Of a DNA stretch of 64,000 nt, positions 19,018-35,911 are shown one piece after another. The translations under genes and the position numbers were made by a program. Numbering within the stretch: position 1 is the first letter of the stretch; each line of letters opens with the position of its first letter. The DNA comes from Candidatus Persebacteraceae bacterium Df01 (GTDB lineage Bacteria > Pseudomonadota > Gammaproteobacteria > Tethybacterales > Persebacteraceae), in NCBI GenBank assembly GCA_030386295.1, contig JANQAO010000003.1, positions 174,114 to 238,113 on the forward strand, written 5' to 3'. The notes below the pieces were generated by a model. That model had not been told where the DNA came from. It ran no database searches and was given only the letters and a program-made list of their open reading frames with translations.

Positions 19018-19962
19018 ATGTTAAAATCCAACAATAGTATTATCCTCGCCAAGGTCGAGACGACATCAGGGACGGATGCTATCCCTACAGGCGCAGCGAA
19101 TGCAATACAAGTAAGCAATATAGAGCACACGCCCATTGCCAGTGATACGGTTGATTTGCCGCGGAATACGGGATACTTCGGGCACGGGCCGCAACTATTA
19201 ATTAATAAACGCGTGACTATTGCGTTTGACGTGGAGGTATCCGCAGCGGGTGCAGCCGATACGGTACCAGCATGGGCACCGTTATTGCGTGGGTGTTTGT
19301 TTAACGAGACCGTTACTGTCGGCACATCGGTGTCATGGTCGCCTATCACCAACAACGCCGAAACACTGACGATATATGTATATAGAGATGGCGTTGTGCA
19401 GAAGCTAGTCGGCTGTCAAGGAACATTTACGCTGACATTATCTGCGGGTGGTGCTCCATCATTCAGATACACATTCACTGGTTCTTATGCTGGGCCGAGT
19501 GACGAAGCCAATCCAACAGCAGCGCTATCGGCATTCCGTACGCCGCTTGCTGTTGATTTCACTAATGCAACATTAGCGATACACGGTTACGATGTTGTAT
19601 GTAATGAATTTAGTATTGACATAGCCAATGCGGTGACATCTACCGACATTATCGGCAGCAATGACATTGTTATTAGCGAGCGAGCGCCGGTGGGCTCGGC
19701 AACAATAGACTATACCACCGTAGCGGATAAGAATTGGATTGATATTGCACGAGCGGCGACTGGTGGACCACTGGCATTTGTTTTAGGTGAGTCGGACGGT
19801 TCGGGTGGGCGCACTGCCGGCACAATATTCAAAGTTGATTGCCCCAATATCAGCCTCGGCGCACCGACATTCGGTGACCGCGATGGTATCTTGACGGCAA
19901 CTATTCCGTTGCGGTTAGTGCCAGATGCCGGCAATGACGAAATCATAATCACAACACAATAA
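19018..19962 (+). CDS. Tail tube protein, siphovirus type
   Basis: This 314-residue beta-rich protein has LKSNNSIILAKVETTSGTDA at the start and repeated strands such as VTIAFDVEVSAAG and GTFTLTLSAGGAPSFRYTF, typical of tail tube subunits with an Ig-like extra domain in B3/D3112-like phages. The position before the frameshifted chaperone pair and tape measure supports it. With no sheath gene nearby, it argues for a flexible non-contractile tail. Confidence 0.78.
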   Translation: MLKSNNSIILAKVETTSGTDAIPTGAANAIQVSNIEHTPIASDTVDLPRNTGYFGHGPQLLINKRVTIAFDVEVSAAGAADTVPAWAPLLRGCLFNETVTVGTSVSWSPITNNAETLTIYVYRDGVVQKLVGCQGTFTLTLSAGGAPSFRYTFTGSYAGPSDEANPTAALSAFRTPLAVDFTNATLAIHGYDVVCNEFSIDIANAVTSTDIIGSNDIVISERAPVGSATIDYTTVADKNWIDIARAATGGPLAFVLGESDGSGGRTAGTIFKVDCPNISLGAPTFGDRDGILTATIPLRLVPDAGNDEIIITTQ

Positions 19963-20225
19963 TGACAATACGCACCTCAGCAACGGTAACACTAACAGGT
20001 TCATGGACAAACCTCGGTGCTGGTCCTATATTTGGGAACACCAACGGGCACAATAAGGGATTCCTAGAGCTTGGGTATAGCGACGGTTCTACGGCACCAA
20101 CAGTGGGGATTCCGGTGGGGGATGATTTTGCCGTCGTGTCATCACGCACAGAGAATACATGGCTGCGCACAACTACTGGGGCAAGTATTGAGTTTCGTTA
20201 CTATGCATATGAGAATACGCAGTAA
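19962..20225 (+). CDS. Small structural-looking phage protein
   Basis: This 87-residue beta-rich, Thr/Gly-rich protein begins TIRTSATVTLTGSWTNLGAG. It has no named family that I recognise. It is coupled by TAATG to the tail tube gene, and its own end overlaps the next start, so it is part of the tail transcription unit. It may be a tail decoration or tube-associated domain. Confidence 0.5.
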   Translation: MTIRTSATVTLTGSWTNLGAGPIFGNTNGHNKGFLELGYSDGSTAPTVGIPVGDDFAVVSSRTENTWLRTTTGASIEFRYYAYENTQ

Positions 20226-20829
20226 GCGATTTGATTATTGGGTGGGATATTATCCGCGTCACAATAACGTATGCCGTATTCACGTTGGTTTTGGCGGTGG
20301 TGGCAGTAGCGGCGGCAGCGGACAGACTGCCGAACAAGTAAACTCAGCTATTACGGAGGCCCTGGCGCAAATACCGCAGCCGATGTTGCCGAATGCCGTC
20401 TCTGCTTCGGGCCCAGCCAAGCGGGGCTTGGGCGGCACAGGCACGTCAGTATTTCTGACTTTTCCGCCAGATCAATCTACAAGCAGCGATGCTGCCATAA
20501 CTGGCACAGGCGATGAAGTAACCAATAACCCAGCAGGGGCTTACTCTATCAGGCTGAACGCTTTTCTCGATGAGCGCAACTCAAGCGGTAATCCAAGAAA
20601 AAATATTGAGACTAGACTATATAAAACCACCACACGCCTCTCTGAATATGATAGTCAATCGTGTTACCTTCGGGTAGTAGCTATTGATGGTCGCCTAGGC
20701 GCAAATTATCAAATAAATCTTGATGCTGGTGACACAATAAAATTTCAAGCCTATGTAATCCAGGCGCAAACATCAACCAATGTAAATCTTAAACAAAGGT
20801 ATTTACGGGTTGATAGATTTGCCTTGTGA
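20209..20829 (+). CDS. Virion-associated protein with Gly-rich linker (hypothetical)
   Basis: This is a 206-residue protein from ATG 20209 (ATG 20203 also possible). A short N-terminal part is followed by the linker GGGGSSGGSGQT, a helix (AEQVNSAITEALAQIPQP) and a beta-rich domain of about 140 residues (NAFLDERNSSG; VVAIDGRLGANYQINLDAGD). The linker and jelly-roll-like end suggest a surface fibre or decoration. No family is recognised. Base composition resembles its neighbours. Confidence 0.5.
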   Translation: MRIRSKRFDYWVGYYPRHNNVCRIHVGFGGGGSSGGSGQTAEQVNSAITEALAQIPQPMLPNAVSASGPAKRGLGGTGTSVFLTFPPDQSTSSDAAITGTGDEVTNNPAGAYSIRLNAFLDERNSSGNPRKNIETRLYKTTTRLSEYDSQSCYLRVVAIDGRLGANYQINLDAGDTIKFQAYVIQAQTSTNVNLKQRYLRVDRFAL

Positions 20830-20848: not shown

Positions 20849-21331
20849 ATGATAATAGAGCTAGTTAGGTTCTATACGGATGGTTCCTGCACCGCGGGGG
20901 CGCTATATTGTCAAGATAAGCAGCTGTGTTATGTGCTCGAAGACAGAATGCGCAATAAAAAAATAAATGATATTACTGCCATACCAATCGGGGAATATCC
21001 CATTACCCTACACACGGCGGGGGGATTTCATGAACGATATAAAAAAAAATATCCCGAACACAAAGGCATGTTGCTGCTCAACAACATCCCTAATTTTAAG
21101 TGGGTACTAATCCACATCGGCAACACAATAGATGATACCAGCGGCTGCCTACTCGTCGGCAATGAATTACGCCTAGGCGAAAAAACAAACTGTAGAGTAG
21201 TACACAGCACAGTGGCCTATCGTGCTATTTATCCTCATCTTGCCGCTGCGGCGGCTTCTGAAGAAGGGCTGACAATAAAAGTAATAAATGGCTGTCCATT
21301 TGATTTTGGCGGCATTCCGGCCGCCGCATAA
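20849..21331 (+). CDS. DUF5675-like protein
   Basis: This is a 160-residue protein from ATG 20849. IIELVRFYTDGSCTAGALYC, LCYVLEDRMRNKK, TAIPIGEYPITL and WVLIHIGNTIDDTSGCLLVG fit DUF5675, a family common in phages whose members keep a His in an H-GN context and a Cys near it. That active-site-like pair suggests an enzyme, possibly acting on cell wall. No other endolysin candidate is visible, so this could fill that role; that is inference. Confidence 0.65.
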   Translation: MIIELVRFYTDGSCTAGALYCQDKQLCYVLEDRMRNKKINDITAIPIGEYPITLHTAGGFHERYKKKYPEHKGMLLLNNIPNFKWVLIHIGNTIDDTSGCLLVGNELRLGEKTNCRVVHSTVAYRAIYPHLAAAAASEEGLTIKVINGCPFDFGGIPAAA

Positions 21332-21342
21332 CAGGAGCAAAA

Positions 21343-21747
21343 ATGATACTCATTCAAAAAGATTTACAGGTCAGTTGGCCGGTTACCGTAAGCGTTGCCG
21401 CTGATGGCGGTGTGGTGACTGAACACGTTACTACGATGATATTGCGCGCGCTAAATAAAAAATCCCGAAACAAAATGCACCAAACACTGGATGAATCACG
21501 AGCATTAACTATTCGCTCATCGGCACAAGCAAAACAAAAAATAGAGGACGTGCTAGACCAAATATGCGTGGATAATGTATTGGGGTGGGATGATGTGCAG
21601 GACGCAGATGGGAAAAAAATATCCTTCAGCGAAAAAAACTTACTGGCGGCTATGGATGCCATGCCGGCGCTACGTGATGCTATTGTTCAATCGCTGGCAG
21701 ACATAACGCTGGGAAAGCCCGCCGCCAGCACCTCAGACAATATATAG
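21343..21747 (+). CDS. Tail assembly chaperone (lambda gpG analogue)
   Basis: This 134-residue protein has AGGAG before ATG 21343. It lies directly upstream of the tape measure with a second short gene between, the standard place of the tail assembly chaperone. A heptamer G GGA AAG at 21711-21717, in the correct reading phase, allows a -1 slip into the frame of the next gene. The normal product ends LGKPAASTSDNI. Such proteins bind the tape measure while the tube assembles and are absent from the virion. Confidence 0.75.
   Translation: MILIQKDLQVSWPVTVSVAADGGVVTEHVTTMILRALNKKSRNKMHQTLDESRALTIRSSAQAKQKIEDVLDQICVDNVLGWDDVQDADGKKISFSEKNLLAAMDAMPALRDAIVQSLADITLGKPAASTSDNI
21711..21717 (+). promoter_or_regulatory. 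Programmed -1 frameshift site GGGAAAG
   Basis: The zero frame reads CTG GGA AAG CCC, so the heptamer has the X XXY YYZ form. The -1 frame is open into the next gene. The same heptamer is used by lambda G/GT. The stop of the upstream frame is 28 bases further on. Confidence 0.75.
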
Positions 21748-22109
21748 AGTGGGCAGATGGCGAGATGAAAGCCAAAAGCGAAAACGGCAAGAAAAATCTC
21801 GCCGCCGCCGCCGCCGCATTTGGCTTAGCGATGGCAGCAGAACCTCCCCCACAAAAATCATTCAAGCTGTGGCGCGGCGTGGTGCGCAGTGTATCGATAT
21901 TTAATCAACTGCCCGATTCGGTGTGGCGGCATTACTTCCCGCCGATGGGCGGTAACGTGCTATTGCTGGGGCTTGATTGGGCGGCGGTTGCGGCGTTGTT
22001 GTCGTTGCGTTGTCCGCGCATTGCGGGGACAAAAATGACAACACTATTAGATGACCTGACAGCAATGGAAGCGGTGACCGTCAGCATCCGCAACAGAGTA
22101 AGAAAATGA
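21717..22109 (+). CDS. Frameshift extension of tail chaperone (lambda T analogue)
   Basis: Reading in the -1 frame from the slip at GGGAAAG continues ARRQHLRQYIEWADGEMK and on to 22109 without a stop, adding about 130 residues. A free start at ATG 21765 exists but has no ribosome site (GCAGATGGCGAG precedes it), so the fusion is the likelier product. The extension has an Ala-rich stretch (NLAAAAAAFGLAMAA) and a hydrophobic C-terminal half. It would bind the tail tube, as the T domain does in lambda. Confidence 0.72.
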   Translation, partial: ARRQHLRQYIEWADGEMKAKSENGKKNLAAAAAAFGLAMAAEPPPQKSFKLWRGVVRSVSIFNQLPDSVWRHYFPPMGGNVLLLGLDWAAVAALLSLRCPRIAGTKMTTLLDDLTAMEAVTVSIRNRVRK

Positions 22110-25054
22110 CGTTAACTGTACCTATTACCATTAACGCCGATACGGGCGACCTCGATGCAGCACTCAAAAAAGTAACCAACCAATTAACTGGGCTGGGTAG
22201 CGCGGCGCAAAAATCATCTGCCAAACTCACTACGCTCACCGGGCGGTTGAGTGGCAACGCTAAAGCAACAACAATAGCAGCGACCGCCAACAAAGGATAT
22301 GCCGTTGCATCCCGTGGTGCGGCCTCGGCAACGAGCCGAGCAACCGCCCAACTCACCAAGGCCAACGTAGTAACAAATCAATTTAGCGGCGGCATGAGCG
22401 CCGCTACACAAAGCCTTATTGCTTTTTCTGCTTCTTATGTTGGAGTGCGACAGGCCGTATCCGCACTAAACGACCTCGGCAACATACGAAATCGACTATC
22501 GCTAGTGACAGATAGCACCCGCGAATTAATAGACATACAACAACAATTATTTGATATATCGTTGAAAACTCGTAGTTCGTTCGTATCCACTGGTGAGCTA
22601 TACGGGCGCGTAGCGCTATCAACAGATGAGCTCGGACGAAGCCAGAAGGAATTATTAGAGATCGTAGAGATTACCGCCAAAGCAGTAGCCATATCCGGCG
22701 CGACAGCGGAGAGTGCTGCTGGCGGATTAGTTCAGTTTGCACAAGGGTTAGCAAGTAACCGACTGCAAGGCGATGAGCTGCGGTCAGTTTTGGAGAGTTT
22801 GCCGGGGTTATTTGCTACGCTACAGCGCGGGCTGAACGTCAATCGCAGCCAACTAAGACAGCTGGCTGAAGAAGGTAAGCTGACGGCGGAAGTGATTATC
22901 AACGCGATACTATCGCAGAACGAAGCCGTTAGTGAACAATTCAGCAGGCTAGCACCGACCATATCTCAGGGATGGCAACAGATCAGCACTGGTGTATTAC
23001 GCTATGTGTCGGCGATGAATGATGCAAGCGCCGCATCAAAAGGACTGAACAAAGCCATGGAAAACTTAGGTCAGAATTTTGAGGGCGTGGCCGGTGCGCT
23101 AGCGATTATTGTTGGTTCTGGTGAATTGATTTTGGTGGGGCGGTATGCGTCACAAGCAGCGAAAGCATTGGGTACACTCACGGTTGCCGCGGCAACAGCA
23201 GCGGTAGCGGCAACAGGACTAAAACTAGCGGTTGGCGGATTGGTTGGCGTTGCCGTAGTTGGCTCAATTCATGGAATGTTAAAAGCAATAGATACATTGA
23301 AGAATGGGACAGTCGGCGCGACACTCGAGGTCACGAAGTTAGATACTTTTATTAGCAACTTGGGTAAGGCGGGAGCCAACAACGTAGACGCACTACAAAC
23401 AAAAATTACCGAACTCGAAAAACGAATAGCATCAATCCGCCGCACTTTTGGGGAGCTTAATAATAAGGAGCTGGTAAACGACACAATAGATGAACTCACG
23501 AATCAACTCAAGACACTTCGCGGAGCATTATCAGCAGCCAAAAAAGGACTAGCGTCAGACGGGAGTGTTATACCCGAGCAAGAAACAAGGAAAGCACCTA
23601 CCGATGAAGCAACCGCAAAAAAAACAGCAGATGCATTATTGCAAATTACCACTGGATTTGAGCGTGACAGGATTGCGTTGATTACCGATAGCTTTGCTCG
23701 TCAGCGAGCGCAAGCACTGGCAGCATTTGACGACAGGATAAAGCAAATTAAACAACTGGAAGTGGGCGAAGCAAAACTAGCGGAATTACGGGGTACAGCA
23801 GCAGGGTTACGCGACCAAGCTATCAGCCAGATTAATGCAGCGGAGTTGCGCGCGAATGTAGATGCGCAGGCAGCAGAATTTAAACGCGAAAAACAAGCCA
23901 GAGAAGATTATTACAACGCAGTCAAAACTAATGTAGACAATCTAGCAGACGACTATCGCCAAGACGAACAAAACCGTAAAGAATATGTTAATGGCGTGCG
24001 TAATAATACCGATGCGCTGGTGGAGCAATTCCGCCGTGAGCAGGATGTCACACTCGACATTGAGCAGCGGCGGGCAAAATTTCGCAAGGAGCGAGCAGAC
24101 GCACTCAGTCAACGCGATATTTTTGGCGGCTTTGACGCTGGCGATGAGCTGGGGGTGCAAGCGGATATCGACTTCGCGACCATCAGCCGCGACCAGACAC
24201 TCAACGACATTGACCAGCAGCAAGGCGTAGGCGAAATCACACCCGAACAAGGGTTTGAGCTGCGCGAATTAGCACAAGAAGAATGGCGGCTAGCGCTAGA
24301 GAACATACAAGACCAGACAGCGACAGCAGCAGAAGAATTGCGGGATACGCTGGCCGGTGCTTTTGTCGTTGACGTCAGCAGCTTAGGTACCCTAGAAGGT
24401 GCGGTGGAGTCATTACGCGCACCAATCCAAGGATTGTCTCAGGTAGCACTCGAAGGAGGTAGCGCATTGGAGACATACGCTAAGGGATATATTGCCGCCG
24501 TCGCTAAAAAGATAGCCGCCGCATCACTAGAGTTAGCGGCGGTAGCTACATTAGATTTGATCGCACAATCTTTTGGAGTCAAGCCTGGCACAGTGCTGCG
24601 TGCCTACTATGGCGATATGGCAGTTGATGCAGTTACCGGCGGTAACAGCAGTCCACAGTCAACGTCTGCAGGTCCACCAGCTCGGGCATATCACTCCGGC
24701 GGTGTGGTCGGACACCATACTGGGACTGAGCGACATGTGCCGCCGGGAACATTCGCTAATGCGCGGCGGTTTCATAACGGTGGCCTAGCTGGCGACGAAG
24801 TGCCAGCAATACTACAGACGGGCGAACGCGTGCTCAGCAGAGATGAGGCGCGCAATTACAGCAGACCGACGAACGTCATTATTAATATGGTTAACAATGG
24901 GGAAGCAGCTAATGTATCAGCGACTGCAACGCAACGCGATACTGGCGAAGGCGACGAAGTAATAGTGGACATTGTCGTTCAAAGCATAGCCGAGGGTGGA
25001 CCAGTAGCTAAAAGCATCAGCCAGCAATTCGGGCTGACCGCAACACCAGTCTAA
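22106..25054 (+). CDS. Tail tape measure protein
   Basis: This 982-residue protein is the longest in the prophage. Residues about 60-300 match the tape-measure N-terminal domain (NIRNRLSLVTDSTRELIDIQ; STGELYGRVALSTDELG; LQGDELRSVLESLPGLFATL). Two hydrophobic stretches follow (ALAIIVGSGELILVG; AAATAAVAATGLKLAVGGLV), then coiled coil. About residues 585-660 contain three 25-residue repeats. The C-terminus has a His/Gly-rich segment (YHSGGVVGHHTGTERHVPPG) and FHNGGLAGDEVPAILQTGER. By the usual rule of about 0.15 nm per residue the tail would be near 150 nm. Confidence 0.93.
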   Translation: MTLTVPITINADTGDLDAALKKVTNQLTGLGSAAQKSSAKLTTLTGRLSGNAKATTIAATANKGYAVASRGAASATSRATAQLTKANVVTNQFSGGMSAATQSLIAFSASYVGVRQAVSALNDLGNIRNRLSLVTDSTRELIDIQQQLFDISLKTRSSFVSTGELYGRVALSTDELGRSQKELLEIVEITAKAVAISGATAESAAGGLVQFAQGLASNRLQGDELRSVLESLPGLFATLQRGLNVNRSQLRQLAEEGKLTAEVIINAILSQNEAVSEQFSRLAPTISQGWQQISTGVLRYVSAMNDASAASKGLNKAMENLGQNFEGVAGALAIIVGSGELILVGRYASQAAKALGTLTVAAATAAVAATGLKLAVGGLVGVAVVGSIHGMLKAIDTLKNGTVGATLEVTKLDTFISNLGKAGANNVDALQTKITELEKRIASIRRTFGELNNKELVNDTIDELTNQLKTLRGALSAAKKGLASDGSVIPEQETRKAPTDEATAKKTADALLQITTGFERDRIALITDSFARQRAQALAAFDDRIKQIKQLEVGEAKLAELRGTAAGLRDQAISQINAAELRANVDAQAAEFKREKQAREDYYNAVKTNVDNLADDYRQDEQNRKEYVNGVRNNTDALVEQFRREQDVTLDIEQRRAKFRKERADALSQRDIFGGFDAGDELGVQADIDFATISRDQTLNDIDQQQGVGEITPEQGFELRELAQEEWRLALENIQDQTATAAEELRDTLAGAFVVDVSSLGTLEGAVESLRAPIQGLSQVALEGGSALETYAKGYIAAVAKKIAAASLELAAVATLDLIAQSFGVKPGTVLRAYYGDMAVDAVTGGNSSPQSTSAGPPARAYHSGGVVGHHTGTERHVPPGTFANARRFHNGGLAGDEVPAILQTGERVLSRDEARNYSRPTNVIINMVNNGEAANVSATATQRDTGEGDEVIVDIVVQSIAEGGPVAKSISQQFGLTATPV
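23858..24082 (+). repeat. Three 25-codon tandem repeats in the tape measure gene
   Basis: The units begin VDAQAAEFKREKQAREDYYN, VDNLADDYRQDEQNRKEYVN and TDALVEQFRREQD. Units 1 and 2 share spacing and character at most positions; unit 3 decays after its middle. All are heptad-like coiled coil. Confidence 0.6.
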
Positions 25055-34785: not shown

Positions 34786-35911
34786 GTTTGCCCATTAGTT
34801 GCATAAAATTATCAAACAAAAAATCGGCGTCATGCGGTCCCGGATTTGCTTCTGGATGCCCCTGAAAAGTGATAACTGGTGGTGCCTCACACGCTAATCC
34901 CTGTAAAGAACCGTCAAACAACGACACATAGGTAACCCGAGCTGAAGCCGGCAGTGATTTAGCGTCTACAGCAAAACCATGATTTTGGCTGGTGATTAAC
35001 ACTCGCCCGTGTGTCGTGTCTCGCACTGGATGGTTGGCGCCATGGTGACCAAATTTCATTTTTATTGTTTTCCCTCCCAAAGCAACAGCGAGAATTTGAT
35101 GCCCTAAACAGATACCCAGTAACGGCATATTTTGGTTGAGTAAGGCGCGCGCCAGTTTTATTGCTGCCTCACAGGGTTCTGGGTCACCTGGTCCATTAGA
35201 AAACACTACGCCGTCGGGTCGCTGTGCTAACACCGCAGCGACGTCTGATTCATAAGGCATGACAGTGAGTTGGCAGCCGCGTGCTGCCAAGTGCCTCAAA
35301 ATAGCGCTTTTAGTGCCACAATCCAATATCACAACACGCTTGCCGCCACCACCGCCGCCAACATAGTCATTATGTGCTGCCCGCCACAAACCTTCTTCCC
35401 AAGTGTTTGAGCGTGAGCTGCCAGCTTCACTGGCGAGCATGACGCCTTGTAACCCAGCAAAGGCGCGGGCTGCTGCTAGCGCCTCAGTTTGAACCGCTTC
35501 GCTCTTTCCCGGTGCAATACTGGCGGAAATCGCACCGCCATTGCGCAATTTGCGAGTGATGGCGCGAGTATCAATATCTTCAATCGCGGTGATGCGCTTG
35601 TCGCATAAAAAACCAGGTAGTGATTGCACAGCACGCCAGTTACTGTGGTGGCGAGTGATGCGGCGGGCAATAATTCCAGCAACAAAAGCTTGCGGAGACT
35701 CATCATCTAGCGGAGTAACGCCAGTGTTACCAATATGGGGATGGGTGAAATTGACTAATTGCCGATGGTAAGAAGGGTCGGTGATAATTTCCTGATAACC
35801 GGTTATTGCAGTATTAAAGACCGCTTCGCCAACGACGATACCGCTGTGTCCAACTAACCGTCCGGTAAATACGTCACCGTCGGCAAAGGTTAATATGGCG
35901 TTGTGGGTCAT
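34778..35911 (-). CDS. carA: Carbamoyl-phosphate synthase, small (glutaminase) subunit
   Basis: This 377-residue protein is of normal length. The start chosen is ATG 35911 ([20 protein letters not shown]). The C-terminal class I glutamine amidotransferase has the nucleophile Cys in [17 protein letters not shown] and [10 protein letters not shown] near the end. No ribosome site is visible: a T8 run and five bases come just before the ATG. The leader has a -10 match and a terminator-like hairpin. Confidence 0.96.

Follow-up and report, generated by a model that had tools for sequence, protein, structure and literature searches.

Whether two overlapping reading frames, the second at -1 and immediately 5' of a phage tape measure gene, are two separate genes or a single gene yielding two products by ribosomal frameshifting is the question raised by this locus. 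It lies in a window of 64,000 nucleotides (the whole stretch of DNA analysed) in which several Mu-like markers are encoded nearby, including a Mu transposase (DDE_2, 2.4e-41), a MuB-type ATPase (Phage-MuB_C, 1.1e-05), Phage_Mu_Gp27 (2.8e-33) and Portal_Mu (4.2e-83). The phage is thus, as judged from its gene content, Mu-like, and the prophage combines a long-tail tape measure module with a G/GT-type gene pair. ORF1, the heptamer, the extension and the tape measure and tail tube genes are all on the forward strand. ORF1 (21343-21747), in the zero frame, would encode a G-like tail assembly chaperone of 134 residues, and the -1 frame contains a T-like extension (21717-22109) of 130 residues past the slip plus the stop. 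The next gene (22106-25054) encodes a tape measure protein of 982 residues (PF20155 TMP_3, 1.4e-51), while a tail tube protein (PF18906 Phage_tube_2, 2.1e-18) is encoded upstream (19018-19962). A DUF5675 gene (PF18925, 1.5e-27) at 20849-21331 separates the tail tube region from the chaperone, and an 87-residue frame (19962-20225) overlaps a longer frame (20071-20829) in another register. ORF1 weakly resembles annotated tail assembly chaperones (PHROG 313, tail assembly chaperone, 3e-06; PHROG 569, 5.3e-05), and the extension matches PHROG 680 (1.7e-07), i.e., both halves match PHROG tail-chaperone/pre-tape-measure profiles. Neither half has an above-cut-off match in Pfam. Of ten aligned fusions, all matched PHROG 680 and nine matched PHROG 569, and a profile of these ten found no relative by sequence in the PDB.

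The two frames of the window are connected by a heptamer with the phase expected of a -1 slip site. In the frame starting at 21343, the codons at this point are CTG GGA AAG, which places G GGA AAG at 21711-21717. The final upstream stop in the -1 frame is a TGA at 21675, after which this frame is open until the stop ending at 22109, right through the 114-codon ATG frame (21765-22109) of the two-gene reading. Both frames are open at 21678-21747, and a slip is confined to this region, which ends with the ORF1 stop (21745-21747), 27 nt past the heptamer. ORF1 and the extension contain no other stops. The heptamer at 21711 is the sole in-phase XXXYYYZ within the usable ORF1 overlap, and the 64 kb contain three copies of GGGAAAG (at 21711 and 33829 on the forward strand and at 35504 on the reverse strand). 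When joined, ORF1 and the extension make up 255 residues, with LGK-ARRQ as the junction. These readings bear out the initial annotation, which had proposed the phase of the heptamer, the open -1 frame, the junction and a fusion of about 255 residues; its statement that phage lambda G/GT uses the identical heptamer is equally correct, and the phase is the same (NC_001416).

How much weight this heptamer can bear was assessed by recoding ORF1 randomly with synonymous codons (20,000 draws) and scoring in-phase heptamers in the usable overlap. An XXXYYYZ motif was present in 7.8% of recodings, one of 12 shifty heptamers, from a list compiled from general knowledge, in 4.4%, and GGGAAAG itself in 0.7%. 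By itself, the heptamer is moderately unlikely to have arisen by chance, and hence it is suggestive, short of proof. Because chance alone is only moderately unlikely, it is the retention of a -1 site by relatives that settles the case for frameshifting.

Such relatives are distant. The query P0001 found no close relatives in the genome contig and viral contig collections and matched only its own genome across 56 related genomes, the tape measure query found none in the viral contig collection, and the extension used as query gave one weak, partial phage match. Distant relatives were gathered by family and profile searches in which the heptamer was not used. Among 369 genomes of the class, PHROG 680 was found in nine and PHROG 313 in four, the latter including the own genome; an alignment of the post-slip extension, used as a profile against 398 genomes of the phylum, had matches in 30 (own genome included); and phage S-CBS1 was found by tblastn. 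Further searches with the extension profile yielded no additional loci. In total, 45 distinct loci were read, each with a related extension or chaperone: L007-L015 (nine, from PHROG 680), S-CBS1 (L006), L055 and L056 (from the PHROG 313 search), L062-L088 (27, from the extension profile) and L098-L103 (six). Repeats were excluded (L057 and L061, which are the window; L059 and L060, which are L014 and L009; L058, which is L015; and L091-L097, places already read), and one extension-profile match, G558:C26:258867-259031, falls inside L099. A remnant in the window's own genome (L002/L005) was left out.

A recognised in-phase -1 heptamer joins the chaperone frame to the extension in 44 of these 45 loci, which are not independent because they include near-copies (L076/L098/L099, L077/L078 and L069/L071). 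The heptamers are AAAAAAC (30), GGGAAAC (12), AAAAAAG (1) and TTTTTTG (1). In a subset of 38 loci, these numbers are 26, 10, 1 and 1, with 30 heptamers abutting the stop, four at 3-9 nt and four further off; in a subset of six, there are four AAAAAAC and two GGGAAAC, with five abutting the stop and one at 3 nt. Within the final 75 nt or less of the overlap in the 38 loci, XXXYYYZ motifs number 40 in the slip phase, as against 14 and 1 in the other phases. The single exception is L008, where an extension-type frame starting at an ATG of its own precedes a likely tape measure start and no chaperone partner is present on that strand. The initial annotation had proposed conservation of the heptamer as a check, and relatives with both frames but without the heptamer as a refutation. 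Not one of the 44 relatives that have both frames shows the letters GGGAAAG, which literally is the refuting case, but not in substance, since all 44 carry another recognised in-phase heptamer, and what is conserved is the site rather than its letters. The need for a -1 slip has therefore been kept across a highly diverged chaperone family, in which the slippery letters vary, as does the spacing between heptamer and stop.

The relatives also bear on how ribosomes enter the second frame. Directly past the slip, they share a conserved stretch, LxxAARxWA (LIxAARxWA), the Trp of which hardly varies across the ten aligned sequences, a set too diverged for pattern scans. Its counterpart in the window, LRQYIEWADG, lies five codons past the slip and precedes the ATG at 21765, which is itself 16 codons past the slip. 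Were the second frame a separate gene, re-initiated at this ATG after the ORF1 stop, which ends 17 nt upstream, with the heptamer incidental, its protein would be devoid of the conserved Trp stretch, which argues against separate initiation, as does the in-phase -1 heptamer kept in 44 of 45 relatives. In favour of separate genes, the extension of L008 apparently stands alone with an ATG of its own, and the pairing of the ATG region with the anti-Shine-Dalgarno sequence (-5.1 kcal/mol) is no worse than the median of -4.0 for 13 prophage gene starts, a comparison in which the entry at 20852 is invalid (set at ATA). On balance, we consider two separate genes very improbable. The absence of a ribosome site at the ATG, which had been put forward as an argument for the fusion, is weakly supported: the best pairing, a 9-mer ending 10 nt from the ATG, is imperfect and equalled by 18.9% of 1000 random positions, and the tape measure start itself reaches only -2.4. 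The conserved Trp stretch is better evidence for a fusion than a missing ribosome site. Together with the conserved -1 site, it supports one gene with two products.

Two further explanations are far less credible still. If a single gene had been broken by an accidental frameshift, through decay or a sequencing error, both halves should be found in one frame in relatives, which is the case in 0 of 44; instead, the two-frame layout recurs in these 44 with the same direction of shift, and ORF1 and the extension show no further stops. Despite the existence in the same genome of a second copy of the stretch that has decayed, an accident of this kind is extremely improbable. It is just as hard to believe that the working slip site is not GGGAAAG but the in-phase A AAA AAC at 21633-21639, a type of heptamer common in relatives. 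Because of the -1-frame TGA at 21675, the product of a slip there would end 12 codons on and cannot reach the extension, and this heptamer is well upstream of the junction used in relatives.

We therefore regard it as very probable that this Mu-like prophage carries here a tail assembly chaperone gene of the lambda G/GT type, with a minority -1 slip on G GGA AAG; the grounds are the phase, both open frames, homology, the order of the genes, the -1 site conserved in relatives and the single tRNA-Lys found. We infer the following course of slippage, its frequency and what each product would do. Most ribosomes would read ORF1 to the stop at 21745-21747 and produce the 134-residue chaperone, while a minority would slip one base back on G GGA AAG, with tRNA-Gly moving from GGA to GGG and tRNA-Lys(UUU) from AAG to AAA, and continue to 22109 to produce the 255-residue fusion. 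If the products act as in lambda, the first domain would bind the tape measure protein, the extension would recruit tail tube subunits, and both products would depart before tail completion; in lambda, according to the available part of PMC5009743, the products bind the tape measure and the tail tube and do not occur in the virion. In the host genome, which is 98.3% complete, there are 40 Rfam tRNA matches; typing by ARAGORN showed a single tRNA-Lys (anticodon UUU), and a CUU species was not seen among the tRNAs typed, so AAG is probably read by tRNA-Lys(UUU). The situation would then be that of Escherichia coli, for which the same part of PMC5009743 terms G_GGA_AAG highly shift-prone. In stretches beginning directly after the heptamer, no significant downstream hairpin was detected (z -0.66 to -1.53), and in the 93-nt fold (z -1.53) the main stem starts approximately 35-40 nt downstream.

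The fusion had initially been taken for the main product, which is wrong by comparison with lambda, where the unshifted protein exceeds the fusion approximately 30:1 (gpG:gpGT; available part of PMC5009743). In an HK97-like chaperone cluster, experiments on two frameshift genes gave 6 and 7% (part of PMC3711429 at hand). Because of these values, the fusion would be expected to be a minor product here as well. The reading of the prophage is thereby corrected to one gene with two products, of which the long one is minor, rather than two genes.

Comparison with known systems makes this locus an ordinary, well-supported addition to the lambda-type frameshifted tail chaperones. Lambda G/GT (NC_001416) shares the place before the tape measure gene in addition to the heptamer and its phase. 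The phage in the window is Mu-like and not lambdoid, the stop follows the heptamer by 15 nt in lambda G and by 27 nt in the window, and DUF5675 and other frames are interposed between the tube gene and the chaperone in the window. In lactococcal phage TP901-1 (gpG/gpT), likened here by description, a slippery GGGAAAG is needed for gpT, as stated in the accessible part of PMC4493119. Synechococcus phage S-CBS1 gp13/gp14 (HM480106) is a homologous chaperone (27% identity, E 1e-5) with a -1 extension followed by the tape measure, but its heptamer is A AAA AAC, immediately before the stop. In HM480106, gp13 and gp14 are deposited as two hypothetical/phage proteins, although a -1 shift on the A AAA AAC located at the stop of gp13 connects them, and the gene preceding the chaperone comes directly after a tube-like gene. 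As in the window, a -1 frameshift is predicted in the tail chaperone genes of Acinetobacter phage Loki (PMC5313236), Burkholderia phage KL1 (PMC3483164) and Caulobacter phage phiCbK (PMC3556154), whose heptamers, in the passages available from these papers, are AAAAAAC or GGGAAAC, unlike in the window, with the Loki and KL1 sites right at the stop.

The placement of the slip site differs within the family. XXXAAAC sites, present in 42 of the 44 relatives, are located where a conserved helix-like stretch begins, and 35 of the 42 directly abut the ORF1 stop; five of the others lie 3-9 nt from it and two lie further (27 and 54 nt). In the abutting sites, the C of the heptamer and the first two bases of the stop encode the first residue of the extension (Leu), and because the stop directly follows 35 of 42 XXXAAAC sites, slippage and termination may be in competition. 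For the three loci with heptamers ending in G (the window, L081 and L056), the conserved stretch follows the slip by about five or six codons, and the stop lies 18 and 48 nt away in the two relatives and 27 nt away in the window, a displacement also seen in lambda (15 nt). On a tree of 45 rows with many long branches, in which 10 of 42 inner branches are strongly supported, the neighbour of the window is L084 (AAAAAAC plus stop), in a join with support of 89/91 that is outside the strongly supported branches. The tree sets the three G-ending sites apart, which needs three changes, though they may share one origin. A family with two designs, in which the window is a natural switch from a stop-coupled (L084-like) to a lambda-like site, is a tentative and rather doubtful reading, and the two-design pattern, with three examples, is a lead only. 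Stop-abutting AAC sites are in print as single cases, such as Loki (PMC5313236) and KL1 (PMC3483164), and our literature search found single cases and no family-wide account in the portions of papers available. Stop-abutting and displaced designs could be used for asking whether termination stimulates slippage.

A decayed copy of the DUF5675-ORF1 stretch is present in the same genome (the L002/L005 remnant; G000:C2, approximately 141.8-142.5 kb, minus strand), with 71% identity across 727 aligned positions and similarity ending just past the heptamer. It retains GGGAAAG, its ORF1 has five stops, and its -1 frame meets a TAG four codons past the heptamer; the mechanism is neither supported nor refuted by this copy. 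Near it is a frame that we take, by eye, to be tryptophan synthase beta-like.
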